Origin: Bacteroidota bacterium
GTDB lineage: Bacteria; Bacteroidota; Bacteroidia; B-17B0; Aurantibacillaceae
NCBI GenBank assembly: GCA_030684395.1
Contig: JAUXTT010000002.1
Span: forward strand, 62,001-126,000
DNA: 64,000 bases
Reading direction: 5' to 3'
Shown here: positions 5,127-56,586 of the stretch, piece after piece
Layout of the letters: every line of letters begins with the position of its first letter
Numbering within the stretch: position 1 is the first letter of the stretch
Notes under the pieces: model-generated
Seen by the model: only the letters and a program-made list of their open reading frames with translations
Database searches by the model: none
Told to the model about the DNA's origin: nothing
Position numbers and translations under genes: made by a program

Positions 5127-5422
5127 ATAATGACCCTCTTCCCTTTTTCTTTATTAAGCACAAGTTAGTTAATATGTGCAAAAAAACTTAAATGACATTT
5201 CCTAAAACAGCTAAAACAAAAAATAAGCTTCATGCAGTTTAGCCGGTTTTAATTCATTATCATCTGTAATTTACAGTAAACACCCTATTAATTTACAGGT
5301 ATTACCCTATTTTAATAAAAAATTCTGGCTTTAATTTTACATTAATTAATTGTTATCTACATTATCTATAAATTATTTTATTAACCATTCAATATCAATT
5401 CATTAACTAACGTTAGAAAAAC
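5127..5422. other. AT-rich upstream region of the duplicated cargo genes
   Basis: A 296-base region of very low GC without a convincing ORF, RNA gene or terminator. The only structure noted is a palindrome at its end (5407-5416). Confidence 0.4.
5407..5416. promoter_or_regulatory. 10-bp perfect palindrome CTAACGTTAG just before the start codon
   Basis: CTAACGTTAG is self-complementary and ends 6 bases before ATG 5423. It could be an operator for a dimeric regulator or a small RNA hairpin over the ribosome site. Chance occurrence in AT-rich DNA cannot be excluded. Confidence 0.25.
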
Positions 5423-7348
5423 ATGAAAAAATTAATTACAAAATTAAATTTAGGTGTACTGGTACTAATTACTTCAATTAGTAATTCATTCGCAACATCA
5501 TACACTTCAGTTACCTCAGGCAGTTATAATAATGCAACAACTTGGTCACCCGTGGGTGTACCAACAAGTGATGACAATATCATAATAGCGACAGGACACA
5601 CTGTTACACTTATTGCAAATTCACTTGTCAAAAATATTAATATTCAACAAGGTGCAGTTTTAGATAATGACATTTTTACATTAAAGATTAATACTACAGG
5701 AATGATTCAAAATCCAACTTATGAAAACAATGGCATTCACAATGGAACAGGAAATTTAATAACTTATAATGGATATGATTTAGAAATGAGTGGTTCAGGA
5801 ATAATAAATTGCCCTATAGAAATAGATAGTTATGGTTTAAGAATTAAAAACAATTGCAATTTGACCATTAACAATAATGTATTTCATTCCGTGCCAGGCA
5901 ATTTTGGCATGAACAATAAATATTTTATTGATTGCTCACAAGGAGGTCGTTTAACTATAAACGGTAATATTATAATCGATCCAAATTATACAGTTTCCAT
6001 ATTAAACGCATTAGGTACAATTATTATAAATGGAGATGTTGATTTTGATGGTTTTGCAGGGTCACATATTGATAATTCTGACAGCTTAATTATAATAGGT
6101 AATTTATACCTTGGTGCAAATTCTGGTTACTTTTGGAATGTACCAAATGGAGTTGCACTCTCAACTGTTGCGAGTGTAAGAGGCGATGTTTTCGGAGGAG
6201 GAAGTGGGCAATCTTTTATCTTTCAGGAGGCTAATGCTGTTATTAAATTTGGAGGGCAAGTATTCCCTACATCTGCCGATGGTGATTTATTAGTAAGTGG
6301 TATCAGTTTGTTAACGAGTTTTCCCGTTGAACCCAATACGGTAGAGTACAATGGTACTTCTCCACAAATCATAAAAGCTCCTTCTGATGGAGCTACACTT
6401 GGCGGTGCTTACACACTTAATACATACTCTATCCTTAAAATAAACAACACAAGCCCCACAGGTGTAAGCCTGCTGAGCACTAATATTGATGTTAACGATA
6501 CATTGTTTTTAATTGATGGGGTGCTTAATACAGGTACTAACGAAATTTATGTAAAAAACAATGCTACAAATTCAATAATCAATTATAGTGATACATCTTA
6601 TGTCAATGGAAATTTACGCCGCAATGTAGCACCCGCAGGTGGCAGCTACAATTTTCCTATCGGCAACTCCACTTCCTATCAACTAGCAAACACTAATTTA
6701 TTAGGTACTCACACAGTTGGCAACCTGTTAGCGAATTTCTCAAATCTTACATCGGGTACAGGTTTACCTATTATTGAGGGTACTAATAATTTTTCTACCA
6801 TTCTAAATTGCGGTGGCATTTCTTCAGGTGTTGGCAATATAAATGATGGCGTTTGGACAATAACGCCTGATGCTGGTACTGCAAACTACGATTTAACCTT
6901 AAATGGTAAAAATTACGACAATCAAACAACTATTAATACTATTGTGAAAAGAGCTAATGCTACTGCCTCTTGGTTTCTTTCTGGTAATTATATTGCTTCT
7001 AGCGGCAGTCAACCATTAATCACCTCTCGTACAGGCTTAAGTGGTTTTTCGCAATTCGCAATTGCTTCATCCAATTTACCAACTGCATTAAATAATAGTA
7101 TAGCTGCTAATCAATTTAATATATACCCTAATCCGGCAACCATCAATGTTATTGTTAATTTAAATAATCCTGATTATAAAAATTCTAAAGTAGAACTTTA
7201 CGATTTAATTGGTAATAAATTAAATGCAAGAACAAACTCAAATCAAAACCAATTAACAATTTACCGCGATGATTTAGCCCAAGGTATTTATGTTATAAAA
7301 ATTACCAGTTCCGAAAAATCATATTCTCAAAAAATAATTTTCGAATAA
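5423..7348 (+). CDS. Large secreted T9SS type A protein, first copy of a tandem pair
   Basis: 641 residues with a signal peptide (about 1-24, MKKLITKLNLGVLVL...SFA). The N-terminal part starts TSVTSGSYNNATTWSPVGVP and continues as a series of beta-strand-rich, Asn/Gly-rich segments (NLTINNNVFHS, GTIIINGDVDFDGF, LIIIGNLYLG) that suggest a right-handed beta-helix. The last about 75 residues (FNIYPNPATINVIV, VELYDLIGNKL, LAQGIYVIKI, SQKIIFE) are a T9SS type A sorting domain. So the protein should be carried across the outer membrane by the Por/Spr machinery and attached or released there. Its middle is nearly the same as the next gene's product. The exact function is unknown. Confidence 0.85.
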   Translation: MKKLITKLNLGVLVLITSISNSFATSYTSVTSGSYNNATTWSPVGVPTSDDNIIIATGHTVTLIANSLVKNINIQQGAVLDNDIFTLKINTTGMIQNPTYENNGIHNGTGNLITYNGYDLEMSGSGIINCPIEIDSYGLRIKNNCNLTINNNVFHSVPGNFGMNNKYFIDCSQGGRLTINGNIIIDPNYTVSILNALGTIIINGDVDFDGFAGSHIDNSDSLIIIGNLYLGANSGYFWNVPNGVALSTVASVRGDVFGGGSGQSFIFQEANAVIKFGGQVFPTSADGDLLVSGISLLTSFPVEPNTVEYNGTSPQIIKAPSDGATLGGAYTLNTYSILKINNTSPTGVSLLSTNIDVNDTLFLIDGVLNTGTNEIYVKNNATNSIINYSDTSYVNGNLRRNVAPAGGSYNFPIGNSTSYQLANTNLLGTHTVGNLLANFSNLTSGTGLPIIEGTNNFSTILNCGGISSGVGNINDGVWTITPDAGTANYDLTLNGKNYDNQTTINTIVKRANATASWFLSGNYIASSGSQPLITSRTGLSGFSQFAIASSNLPTALNNSIAANQFNIYPNPATINVIVNLNNPDYKNSKVELYDLIGNKLNARTNSNQNQLTIYRDDLAQGIYVIKITSSEKSYSQKIIFE

Positions 7349-21919: not shown

Positions 21920-22390
21920 ATGAACATGCACAGCCAACAAGACACGAGTGTTTTTTTTATCGATGACAGTGATACCGATAACTTTATTCATCAGCAATTC
22001 TTCCATCGATATTGCAAAAATTACAATTACACCTTTTTTAACTCTGCCATTCATGCTCTTGATTATATTAAGATAGTCCTTGCCAACGATAATTTGTTTC
22101 AGGATAAGGTACCCGAATACATATTCTTAGATCTTGATTTACCTATAAAAAGCGGTTTTGAATTTCTGGATGAATTTGAGCCACTTAATGAGCGAATAAA
22201 CCATAAAATAAAAGTGGTAATACTGACTGCTTCGTTTAACCCTGCAGATAAAGCTAAAAGTTCAACCTATAAATCCGTAGTAAAGTTTATTCTAAAACCG
22301 TTTACTAAAAGCAGTTTAAGTGGTTTTGGATTAAGGCTAAAAAGCCAGGAAGAACTAATTATAAATGACCATGTGGTTAAAAATAAATGA
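21920..22390 (+). CDS. Stand-alone response regulator receiver protein
   Basis: 156 residues, one CheY-like receiver domain and no output domain: acidic cluster FFIDDSDTDNFIHQQFF, phospho-acceptor Asp in YIFLDLDLPIKSG, Thr/Ala in VVILTASFNPADK and Lys in KFILKPF. Such single-domain regulators usually act by protein binding. The next small gene overlaps its stop by 4 bases. The partner kinase is not obvious; the LytS-like kinase lies about 5 kb upstream. Confidence 0.88.
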   Translation: MNMHSQQDTSVFFIDDSDTDNFIHQQFFHRYCKNYNYTFFNSAIHALDYIKIVLANDNLFQDKVPEYIFLDLDLPIKSGFEFLDEFEPLNERINHKIKVVILTASFNPADKAKSSTYKSVVKFILKPFTKSSLSGFGLRLKSQEELIINDHVVKNK

Positions 22391-22572
22391 AAAACAACAA
22401 CAAACATAAAAACTACCTGATAAAATACATAAAGCAACACAGTAGAATATGTTGTGAACTTCCTTTGGAAACATTCAGGATCGAAGCCTTGGTTATTATA
22501 AAAGTACAACTGGAGCTTGATCTTCAAAATGAAATAAGTGCAAAGAAATGCGAAATGATTGGTCTTGTTTAA
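22387..22572 (+). CDS. Tiny protein of an unnamed family (LIKYI...LEALVIxKVQxEL), copy 1
   Basis: 61 residues, translationally coupled to the receiver gene (4-base overlap). The core LIKYI, 17 residues, then EALVIIKVQLEL is matched with the same spacing by the protein at 54048-54233 (LIKYI, 17 residues, EALVILKVQIEL). The predicted structure is two short helices. It has no signal peptide or membrane segment. The function is unknown; coupling to a receiver suggests a regulatory or adaptor role (inference). The paralogy strongly supports that it is a real gene. Confidence 0.75.
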   Translation: MKNNNKHKNYLIKYIKQHSRICCELPLETFRIEALVIIKVQLELDLQNEISAKKCEMIGLV

Positions 22573-22581
22573 ATATAGAAC

Positions 22582-23391
22582 ATGAATGCTTTAAAATTAA
22601 AACTAACGCTGCCCATTGCAGCTATCTTAGCTACTGTTGCCTCCTGCTCACCAAAAGTAGCTGAGATCATCGCCTTGCAGAAAACAGAAGTAGACATAGA
22701 TGGTCAGGCAAACGAATATGGAGAGTTCCGTTACTACAACAGCGAGGCGAAAATGTTTTACGCCTTATCAAACGATTCTTCTAATCTCTATCTCTGTTTA
22801 AAAGTAAACGATGAAACTATGCAGCAACAAATTATTATGGCAGGCATGGACGTTTGGTTGGATACGCTTTCAAAATCAAAAGAGCGGATTGGCATCCGGT
22901 ATCCTTTGGGAGGCATTCGCCCCACAGCACCTTCTTTCAGGGAGGCCGGAGAACCAAAAGGCAAACCCGATATGATGACACAAATGAAAAAAGAACTGTT
23001 GCTGTCACAAAAAACAATGGATCTGCGTGGATTCAAAAACGTAGCCAATGGTTCCAATCTTATGCAAACCCCGGAAGGAATAAAATTGCAGGTCGATTGG
23101 GATAATAGTAACTCAATGATTTATGAGCTTGTTATTCCACTTAAAAATTGGTACAAAGCCAACCTTACAAAATCAGACACCACAAAGATCTTTACGCTAA
23201 CCATAAACATCAATGCCCTTGAAATGCCATCGGGTCCGCCCGGTGGATTCAGCGGTCCACCTCCGGGTGGAAATACCCCATCCGGTGGCGGAATGGGTGG
23301 GCCTCCATCCGGAATGCGCCCTCCTATGGATGGCTTATCAGAAAAAAAAACTGTCAAAGCAAATTTCAAACTTCACATTAATGTTCCTTAA
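22582..23391 (+). CDS. Lipoprotein with CBM9-like fold and Pro/Gly/Met-rich tail region
   Basis: 269 residues. Lipoprotein signal (LPIAAILATVASCSPKV, cysteine at about 22). The opening KTEVDIDGQANEYG and NLYLCLKVNDETMQ resemble carbohydrate-binding-module-9-like beta-sandwich domains, which in Bacteroidota also occur in outer membrane proteins. The C-terminal third contains a Pro/Gly/Met-rich stretch (SGPPGGFSGPPPGG, GGGMGGPPSGMRPPMDG). A 39-residue loop EAGEPKGKPDMMTQMKK is also Met-rich. The stop overlaps the next gene's start by 11 bases. A ligand cannot be named; metal binding by the Met-rich segments is possible but unproven. Confidence 0.7.
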   Translation: MNALKLKLTLPIAAILATVASCSPKVAEIIALQKTEVDIDGQANEYGEFRYYNSEAKMFYALSNDSSNLYLCLKVNDETMQQQIIMAGMDVWLDTLSKSKERIGIRYPLGGIRPTAPSFREAGEPKGKPDMMTQMKKELLLSQKTMDLRGFKNVANGSNLMQTPEGIKLQVDWDNSNSMIYELVIPLKNWYKANLTKSDTTKIFTLTININALEMPSGPPGGFSGPPPGGNTPSGGGMGGPPSGMRPPMDGLSEKKTVKANFKLHINVP

Positions 23392-53523: not shown

Positions 53524-53973
53524 ATGGCAGGCGAAGTTCAAAACAATGTATGGCCCTTACCAAAATTTTATTTTTTGGTAACTATTGATGGCAAAGACTA
53601 TCCTTTTCAGGAAGTAAGCGGATTAGAAACTGAAACGCAAACAATAGAATACAGGAATAGCAATAGCCCCGTTTTTTCAACCATTAAAATGCCGGGTATT
53701 GCCAAGCTTGGTAATGTAACACTTAAAAAAGGCGTGTTTACACATGACAATAATTTTTGGGCATGGTATTCAGCAATTAAGATGAATACCATAAAGCGGA
53801 TAACCGTTGTAATAAAATTAGTTGATGAATCGGGAAATCCAACTATGACCTGGACGCTTCAAAATGCCTGGCCAACAAAAATACAGGGAACCGATCTGAA
53901 ATCAGACGGTAACGAAGTTGCAGTAGAAACAATAGAGTTTGCGCATGAAGGCCTGGTGATTGCAAACAATTAA
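53524..53973 (+). CDS. Contractile-injection-system tube protein (T4 gp19-like), orphan
   Basis: 149 residues. MAGEVQNNVWPLPKFYFLVT, FQEVSGLETETQTIEYRNSN, TLKKGVFTHDNNFWAWYSAI and WTLQNAWPTKIQGTDLKSDG are the tail-tube (gp19 / Pvc1 / Afp1) family pattern (PKFYFxV ... SGL ... TLKRG ... W ... NAWP-K). In phages and extracellular injection systems it forms the inner tube. None of the sheath, baseplate, spike or ATPase genes is in this window. So it is a spare copy or a relic; the gene itself is intact. It lies 20 bases after the MATE gene. Confidence 0.88.
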   Translation: MAGEVQNNVWPLPKFYFLVTIDGKDYPFQEVSGLETETQTIEYRNSNSPVFSTIKMPGIAKLGNVTLKKGVFTHDNNFWAWYSAIKMNTIKRITVVIKLVDESGNPTMTWTLQNAWPTKIQGTDLKSDGNEVAVETIEFAHEGLVIANN

Positions 53974-54047: not shown

Positions 54048-54233
54048 TTAATTTTTCTTACGCGAAAAATCTTTGTTCTTATTCTGCTTAAGCGTTTCCT
54101 GCCGGTGAATAGATAACTCAATTTGCACTTTAAGTATTACCAATGCCTCCAAATTAAGACTTTCCAGATATGACTTCTGATAAGAAAAATCTTTTTCCTG
54201 AATATATTTTATCAAATCCTCTTTCTGAAGCAT
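54048..54233 (-). CDS. Tiny protein of the LIKYI...LEALVI family, copy 2
   Basis: 61 residues. LIKYI, 17 residues, EALVILKVQIEL matches the protein at 22387-22572 with the same spacing; outside this core the two are not alike and the C-terminus here is Lys/Asn-rich. No signal peptide. It faces the tube gene (convergent, 74 bases between stops). Function unknown. Confidence 0.7.
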   Translation of the reverse strand: MLQKEDLIKYIQEKDFSYQKSYLESLNLEALVILKVQIELSIHRQETLKQNKNKDFSRKKN

Positions 54234-54372: not shown

Positions 54373-55005
54373 TTATATTTCGTAAGAAAAAGAGACCCAA
54401 TCATAATTGTGTTTATTACAATATGTGAAGCCCCGGATCATTCTATCCAATAGCCTTAAAAAGTCAATATCCGCTGTTACTGACTTTGCTTTTATTGCTG
54501 TTAATTTATCAAGAAGATACTTTACTTCTTCCCGACTAAAATAATTAGTACATATATCTTCCTCATCAAAAGGTGTATCAAATATTTTTTTGTATTGAAT
54601 GACCCTTTCAAATGTTAGCTTACTTTCGTTTTCTTCCAAGGACTTATTTAACTGTTCCGTTAATCCATTATACTTCCAGATTCCCTCATTTTCTGAAAGG
54701 CACTTTCCTAACTTATCACAAATACAAAGCAAGGAATAGCCATAATCATTCCACTCACCTGATAAGCCCCTGCCATCATTTCCTTTAATGAGTCCGAATA
54801 ATTTAGATGGTACTATGGTTCTTTTGTTTTCGGGAACATAATCAAAAATCAATTCTTTTAATTCCCTTTTAAAACTAAATTTCTCATCATATTTCTCAAA
54901 AGCCTTCGATTGAAGTATTTCTGCATGCAAAGTTTCATCTTTGCTTCCAAACACTGTTTGTGCCTGCTTTAAATCAATTGCAAAAGGTATAACAACTGTT
55001 CCCAT
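54373..55005 (-). CDS. Unknown cytoplasmic protein (DUF7691-like)
   Basis: 210 residues. The opening MGTVVIPFAIDLKQAQTVFG and SKDETLHAEI resembles a family of uncharacterised proteins (MGY-x-L-x-PYAVDLdxLxxVxGSxDE), tentatively DUF7691; a GLSGEWNDYGYSLLCICDKL block follows. No active site residues can be named. It ends 7 bases from the next minus-strand gene's stop on its left side, so the two are likely in one operon. Confidence 0.6.
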   Translation of the reverse strand: MGTVVIPFAIDLKQAQTVFGSKDETLHAEILQSKAFEKYDEKFSFKRELKELIFDYVPENKRTIVPSKLFGLIKGNDGRGLSGEWNDYGYSLLCICDKLGKCLSENEGIWKYNGLTEQLNKSLEENESKLTFERVIQYKKIFDTPFDEEDICTNYFSREEVKYLLDKLTAIKAKSVTADIDFLRLLDRMIRGFTYCNKHNYDWVSFSYEI

Positions 55006-55012
55006 AGTCTAT

Positions 55013-56230
55013 TTATTCATAAATAATTTTTTTAAATAAAATTCCTTTATCGTTTATCAAGCGAATTACATAAACTCCTTTGTTAGTACTGCTTAAATTA
55101 AGCAAGTATGTAGTTGAACTAATAATACCCTGCACAACAAGCTTTCCAAGTGCATTATAAACTTCAAATTTAGTTTCCTGTGAATCTTCCACCTTTATTG
55201 TAAGTTCTCCCGATTCGGTTGGGTTAGGAAAAACAACGAAGTCAATACTTTCTAAATTATTCTCAACAGGTAGTATGCCAGAATAAGTGTGGTTTCCGTT
55301 ATAATCGACCTGCTTTAGCCTATAATACCTTCGGGTTTCGGAAAAAGAATCAATTACTTTGTAGTTTACAACTGTATTACTATTCCCCATTGCTTCCACC
55401 CTTTTCAACTCAAAAAAGCTCTCTCCATTTATACTGTACTCCAACATAAAATAATTACTATTAGTTTCTGCACTAGTACTCCAACTTATTTCAACTTGCT
55501 CCTTTCTTAATACAGCAATAAATGAGAGCAGTTCAACCGGCATAACAACGCCGCCGTTTGAAGCTCCAAAAGTTGATGTTGCTGAATTTTGCCAAGTGAG
55601 GCTTCCGTCGTTATTACGCTCCTTTACAACACCGTCGCTATGACTCCCAATATTTTCATAGCTTGCTGCTGCTGAAGGAATAGTTACTGTTTGTGATCCG
55701 CATGAACCAACGGCACTAATTGTAAGTGTTAGTGCTGTTGTAAGCTGTCCTCCTCCCCAAATAATTGCATCCTGAATAACTCCTGAATTATTATACAATA
55801 AAATCTGCTCGCTTCCATTTGTAAATATGCCTACCTGATTACCCGACAGGGAACCATTGCTACCTGGGTTATTTGTTGTACAGCCACAAGTTGCCCAATT
55901 AAGATTAGGGCTTAAGCCCGAGCCTGCAGCACTGGCCACGGTATAAAAACCACCAGCCGGAATTGTTGCCCCTAAAGGAAAAGTTACTGCAAAATCTCCG
56001 TCAGAAAAAAACCAGCAACCAATGTTTACCGGAGAACCCGATCCATTATAAAACTCTATCCATTCGGCTGTATTTGGCATATTAGCTCCATCATTGGCGC
56101 CGGAAGGATTTACCATAATTTCATTGATAAATACCTGAGCCTTGAAATTAGAATATATCATTAACAGAAAAAGGAAAACTAGTTTATTCCCCAACCAATA
56201 CTTAAAAAAAATTACTATTACTCTACCCAT
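55013..56230 (-). CDS. Lamin-tail-domain T9SS type A secreted protein
   Basis: About 405 residues from ATG at 56228-56230 (MGRVIVIFFKYWLGNKLVFL, signal peptide end SNFKAQ). N-terminal lamin tail domain: VFINEIMVNPSGANDGANMP, AEWIEFYNGSGSPVNIGCWF. Then LPVELLSFIAVLRKEQVEISW, WSTSAETNSNYFMLEYSING, a fibronectin-like segment also seen in the cargo at 7454. The end has FVVFPNPTESGELTI, LGKLVVQG and GVYVIRLI, the type A sorting domain. Secreted to the cell surface; function unknown. Confidence 0.9.
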   Translation of the reverse strand: MGRVIVIFFKYWLGNKLVFLFLLMIYSNFKAQVFINEIMVNPSGANDGANMPNTAEWIEFYNGSGSPVNIGCWFFSDGDFAVTFPLGATIPAGGFYTVASAAGSGLSPNLNWATCGCTTNNPGSNGSLSGNQVGIFTNGSEQILLYNNSGVIQDAIIWGGGQLTTALTLTISAVGSCGSQTVTIPSAAASYENIGSHSDGVVKERNNDGSLTWQNSATSTFGASNGGVVMPVELLSFIAVLRKEQVEISWSTSAETNSNYFMLEYSINGESFFELKRVEAMGNSNTVVNYKVIDSFSETRRYYRLKQVDYNGNHTYSGILPVENNLESIDFVVFPNPTESGELTIKVEDSQETKFEVYNALGKLVVQGIISSTTYLLNLSSTNKGVYVIRLINDKGILFKKIIYE

Positions 56231-56586
56231 TTTAGATTTTATTGATTTGTAATTAAACAAAAACTGCTAAATCAGATAAAGTGGTTTCGGATAAATCTAT
56301 TAAAGAAGTCCTATAGGCTTTTCACTTTATAAAAGACGTGAATCCTTCAAAACAAAAGTAGAGAAGTTATATGTGCTTATTATTTAATGTCCATTAAGTT
56401 TAAATGAACAAAACATCTGTAATGTAAATTTTCGGGTAGGTATGTTAAGTATTAAAACAGTAACACCTCAATGTAAATACAACATAAATGAAAGGTTACT
56501 GAAATTCACTGTATTCAAAAAAACATTTAAGTATATCATAACACATCAATAAAAATAGGAACATGTTGCTTTCTCAACTTTGCAGA
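56231..56586. other. Gene-free divergent promoter region
   Basis: A 356-base AT-rich region between divergent T9SS genes. No ORF or RNA gene seen. CAACTTTG at 56575-56582 resembles a -7 box but lies only 4 bases before the phosphatase start. Confidence 0.45.

Follow-up and report, generated by a model that had tools for sequence, protein, structure and literature searches.

Annotation regularly overlooks small accessory proteins and, to our knowledge, few connector proteins are known for two-component and Crp/Fnr systems outside Proteobacteria and Firmicutes. Among described systems, the Spo0E type of helical hairpin acting on a receiver may, by analogy, be the closest functional counterpart of one protein described here, referred to below as copy 1. 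Spo0E-like aspartyl-phosphate phosphatases (PF09388) resemble the new family in being tiny (about 50 aa) and composed of two helices, and some members of the new family are coupled to receiver genes. Their signature is the motif SxxxD (PMC11115286). In the new family, in contrast, SxxxD is absent from helix 2 of the 23-member alignment, where the position +4 from the Ser is an invariant Leu, and many members have no receiver neighbor. The PF09388 profile recognized none of the four copies in the genome studied here, and its best match elsewhere scored 14.8 bits against a cut-off of 23. With the profile and the motif both failing, membership in this family was rejected.

Two further described families come close in size or in part of the sequence. 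The BH0509 family (NF033562) is of similar size and aligns with one member along helix 1 and the loop (E 0.026), but the match involves 1 of 23 members and reaches 14.4 bits, compared to the curated cut-off of 30. Likewise, the unnamed phage family phrog_7307 (49 positions) matches the first helix of one member with an E value of 1.1e-4, but only over 28 of 53 residues, while other members match weakly or not at all. Searches of Pfam, NCBIfam, and PADLOC gave nothing above threshold for any member, and PDB sequences gave no match. An identity as a defense system was also rejected, with one sub-threshold PADLOC match at most. None of the libraries searched appears to describe the family.

The window analyzed here is a stretch of 64,000 nucleotides from a Bacteroidota genome of 4.87 Mb, and it encodes two members of the family, copy 1 and copy 2, in the following surroundings.

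21920-22390, plus strand: P0003 (156 aa), a response-regulator receiver of the single-domain type whose gene immediately precedes copy 1; Pfam Response_reg, E 2.6e-7
22387-22390, plus strand: ATGA in which the stop of P0003 and the start of copy 1 overlap (translational coupling); read from the sequence, the receiver TGA being 22388-22390
22387-22572, plus strand: copy 1 (P0001, 61 aa); translation, profile matches, and AlphaFold2
22582-23391, plus strand: 269-aa protein with a signal-peptide-like, Cys-containing N-terminus, beginning 10 bases past the last base of copy 1; read from the sequence
53524-53973, plus strand: T4 gp19-like tail-tube gene, convergent with copy 2; Pfam PF06841, E 1.3e-46
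54048-54233, minus strand: copy 2 (P0002, 61 aa); translation, found by P0001 and by a third member
54373-55005, minus strand: DUF7691 gene, preceding copy 2 in the same orientation with 139 bp in between; Pfam PF24740, E 1.1e-11

The translations are MKNNNKHKNYLIKYIKQHSRICCELPLETFRIEALVIIKVQLELDLQNEISAKKCEMIGLV for copy 1 and MLQKEDLIKYIQEKDFSYQKSYLESLNLEALVILKVQIELSIHRQETLKQNKNKDFSRKKN for copy 2. The initial annotation had given no strand for the second of these; the plus strand at 54048-54233 is interrupted by stops, and the open reading frame lies on the minus strand. Both translations contain the common pattern that had been noted, LIKYI followed by exactly 17 residues and EALVI[IL]KVQ[LI]EL, and BLASTP aligns them without gaps over 48 aa at 40% identity. 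When P0001 was used as a query against the whole genome, it found copy 2 (E 3.8e-4) as well as a third member, MEKERLIAYIMEHDPNADRIKLEAMSIEHLVILKVQLELDVAKKDNNG, which is closer to P0001 than copy 2 is (E 7.3e-6) and which itself recovers copy 2 when used as a query.

The open reading frames are small and missing from all family libraries, as would be the case if both were non-coding and their likeness a matter of chance. However, their local alignment score of 81 was not attained by any of 20,000 shuffles (mean 25.8, SD 4.7, maximum 62). Furthermore, ortholog pairs gave dS/dN values of 0.52/0.046, 0.38/0.106, 0.56/0.111, 1.33/0.21, and 1.19/0.165, corresponding to dN/dS of about 0.1-0.3, well below 1 and indicative of purifying selection on the amino-acid sequence; the open reading frames are therefore almost certainly translated. 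Together with the many additional members described below, these values make a chance or non-coding origin exceedingly improbable, and chance similarity of the two copies was ruled out on the basis of the shuffles, the genome-wide search, and dN/dS. That the protein family is genuine is, in our judgment, practically certain.

The initial annotation had proposed a profile search for additional members, and this search did find members beyond the two window copies. A fourth member emerged from the window genome itself, and profiles built from confirmed members found matches, with E values down to 1e-21, in 12 of 87 genomes from the same family and 16 of 395 from the same class. Two other families yielded members in 5 of 7 and 6 of 36 genomes, respectively. 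In an even phylum-wide sample of 395 genomes, the window genome alone contains members. The distribution is patchy and, in the genomes sampled, limited to Bacteroidia. Every relative that carries a name is a metagenome-assembled genome (UBA2475, one labeled Chitinophaga pinensis, and others); a contig scan gave no match with the third member as query and five named loci from such genomes with members of the metal-associated clade described below. The suspicion that a small-protein family had been overlooked is thus borne out by the additional members, the purifying selection, and the lack of a model in Pfam, NCBIfam, and PADLOC.

The sequence core common to the family is [LI]I-x-[YF]-I, a fixed 17-residue spacer, and x-x-L-[VI]-x-x-K-x-x-[IL]-E, to which both window copies and about 20 other proteins conform. 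Its columns are free of gaps in 22 of 23 aligned members, and the exception (G000 C2) has 2 extra residues. Equal length and spacing of the two copies had been taken to argue against chance. The spacing part of this argument holds, but the equality at 61 aa is a coincidence, because members of the core set vary between about 45 and 63 aa, and alternative starts could make them longer. An apparent 193-aa fusion in L045 and L080, in which the small open reading frame continues without a frameshift into the gene of a secreted protein that has a separate start, was set aside as a lost stop and not a domain fusion. One locus, L084, encodes a 119-aa protein (5498-5857) with two tandem copies of the motif, located beside an integrase-like gene and a small gene of DNA-binding type; the first half of this protein has single-copy relatives in L093 and L120.

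AlphaFold2, supplied with a 23-row alignment, predicts P0001 to form a helix-loop-helix (mean pLDDT 83) with helices at residues 3-18 and 32-59 and a short helix or turn at 21-24. The family core is predicted to fold into a pair of amphipathic helices, the loop between them containing a short helical turn. In the model of the L084 tandem protein, the pattern of helix, short helix, and helix occurs twice, with helix 2 of the first repeat continuing into helix 1 of the second as one long helix, and not as a compact pseudo-dimer. Foldseek revealed no structural relative (best E 3.9), and PDB and viral models gave nothing better than E 0.95.

The best superposition, obtained by re-examining Foldseek's own weak list, is with the helix-loop-helix of the eukaryotic E47/NeuroD1 bHLH domain (2ql2), with 1.8 Å over 44 residues, 16% identity, and a Z score of 4.9, a value no higher than a common arrangement would give; with VIA, Z was at most 4.9. 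This superposition could be read as pointing to a dimerization module of the HLH type, which would either bind nucleic acid or act as an Id-like dominant-negative regulator. Yet the member alignment contains no conserved basic stretch before helix 1, several members are acidic or neutral, and the likeness of the predicted monomer to bHLH domains is one of arrangement rather than membership. We consider an HLH-type role very unlikely.

At the copy 1 locus, the claimed translational coupling to a receiver gene was confirmed: the ATG at 22387 overlaps the receiver stop codon by 4 bp. The receiver residues of P0003 are in place, including the acidic pair DD, the phospho-acceptor D in FLDLDLP, the T in LTAS, and the K in LKP, and P0003 is the candidate partner of copy 1. 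Its gene has the lowest score among the 95 receiver matches in the genome (1.1e-6), and its catalytic residues look intact. The 269-aa protein encoded downstream has no Pfam match, and its gene probably belongs to the same transcription unit as copy 1.

The neighbors at about 34 member loci were identified by a basic ORF-calling script, and key neighbors were run against Pfam. As in the window, a receiver gene lies directly upstream of the member in L118 (with a 9-nt gap), and L117 has a histidine kinase gene in this position. In L116, a LytTR gene is followed after a 3-nt gap by the member, a 70-aa open reading frame, and a receiver gene, whose product is 31% identical to P0003. Genes for receiver-type regulators, read by eye, adjoin members in L085 and L086. 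A run of receiver genes, also read by eye, neighbors the L095 protein, itself no more than a probable member (profile E 1.5e-4); two of these receivers were run against Pfam, and both match. Other recurring neighbors are a Crp/Fnr gene, which precedes the member in two genera (L068 and L078; the Crp proteins are 66% identical), and the STAS-like DUF7793, which flanks members in L081 (DUF7793 followed by the member after a 1-nt gap), L078, and L077. Receivers are found at 5 of 68 member flanks (binomial p about 0.02, against 95 matches in the genome) and DUF7793 at 3 of 68 (p about 0.002, owing to its rarity of about 15 per window genome), values that derive from few, partly related loci and from a background rate taken from a single genome, for which a total of about 4,200 genes was assumed. 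On the family tree, the signaling label is unclustered (7 changes, compared to a shuffled mean of 8.4). The neighbors are heterogeneous overall, and several members, copy 2 included, have no signaling neighbor. The roughly 15 genes for DUF7793 (STAS/SpoIIAA-like) in the window genome (G000) have a parallel in tandem arrays on contig C51 of G814. L116 (6501 being the end of a gene that starts at 5905) and L085 (4446-5045) each encode a coiled, phasin-like protein of 198/199 aa near the member; the two are 30% identical (E 2e-26) and have no convincing Pfam match.

The size and predicted helix-loop-helix shape of the family, together with the receiver or kinase neighbors of P0001, L085, L086, L095, L116, L117, and L118, are what one would expect of a phosphatase or antikinase resembling Spo0E or Sda, that is, a very small hairpin of helices that would capture receivers or kinases and draw phosphate out of the pathway. 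Such an activity is nevertheless quite unlikely for the family, since neither PF09388 nor any other Pfam model matches, the SxxxD motif is lacking, and the partners also include Crp/Fnr, DUF7793, and metal-efflux proteins, none of them a receiver.

Copy 2 had been described as facing an injection-tube gene, and the Pfam match confirms the convergent T4 gp19 tail-tube gene. Such a neighbor is absent from every other member locus examined. A link to the gp19 injection apparatus was therefore rejected as a family trait, copy 2 being the single tail-tube case seen, and the tail-tube gene is probably unrelated to copy 2. The neighborhood offers neither a signaling nor a metal-resistance context. 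On its other side, the DUF7691 gene adjoins a gene for a secreted lamin-tail-domain protein (55013-56260).

Seven members are found in or beside operons of the CadA/Czc/ars type (L070, L073, L074, L075, L076, L080, and L119). In the typical order, a P-type ATPase gene is followed by the member and then by DUF3703, with stop/start overlaps: the CadA stop overlaps the start of the member, which in turn overlaps DUF3703 by 4 bp. The metal label requires 2 changes on the tree, compared to 6.4 expected by shuffling (0 of 500). A 3-kb segment comprising genes for a P-type ATPase, the small protein, DUF3703, and a DtxR-like regulator is 97.6% identical in DNA between L076 (G009) and L063/L044 (G056); as these genomes belong to different families, this suggests that the segment was recently transferred horizontally. 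The member in L070 lies beside a short stretch upstream of position 5393 that resembles the CadA 3' end of L076 and directly follows a gene of the type I restriction specificity type, and L070 is apparently a rearranged metal operon.

This mobile segment, the patchy distribution, the highly varied contexts, a site-specific recombinase gene close to L074 (identified by eye), and the integrase gene beside L084 are also consistent with a mobile passenger, a selfish or antitoxin-like small open reading frame that would enter operons and travel with them, its function independent of its neighbors. Several observations argue against such a passenger. The same contexts repeat across genera (Crp/Fnr, DUF7793, and CadA-DUF3703), selection is strongly purifying, the member gene in several operons shares 1-4 bp with a neighbor on one side or with neighbors on both, and no toxin partner was found. 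Scans of viral contigs and tblastn searches of phages and plasmids yielded no family copies, and a phage, viral, or plasmid origin was rejected on this basis. We regard the passenger explanation as unlikely.

We instead favor the view that the family protein is a small accessory protein or modulator of the product of a neighboring gene, a proposal in which our confidence is a little short of even. The initial annotation had suggested a small adaptor or regulator, and this suggestion stands in part: the recurring receiver, histidine kinase, LytTR, Crp/Fnr, and DUF7793 neighbors speak for it, whereas one clade is tied to metal efflux. The adaptor idea, whose one basis is gene neighborhood, is plausible. 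In our proposed model, the family protein would be cytosolic, because it has neither a signal peptide nor a membrane segment, and the conserved hydrophobic faces of its two helices would either mediate dimerization or pack against a partner. Translational coupling would ensure that the protein is produced in step with this partner. In the case of copy 1, this role would fall to the single-domain receiver, the product of the adjacent upstream gene; specific binding of P0001 to P0003 is conceivable, though doubtful. Other copies may instead pair with a histidine kinase, with a regulator of the Crp/Fnr or LytTR type, or with a DUF7793 protein of the STAS-like kind, and one clade would have been recruited into metal-efflux operons, where its genes have the P-type ATPase or efflux gene on one side and DUF3703 on the other.

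Most broadly, the family might represent a generic mini helix-loop-helix module of Bacteroidia, a plug-in modulator of varied regulators and, in one horizontally moving clade, of metal exporters, which would constitute a connector class new to description; we hold this broader interpretation to be possible rather than probable. The recurrence of the family beside receivers, kinases, Crp/Fnr, and DUF7793 provides a concrete, testable set of candidate partners, and the family offers a first way into the function of DUF7793 and DUF3703.
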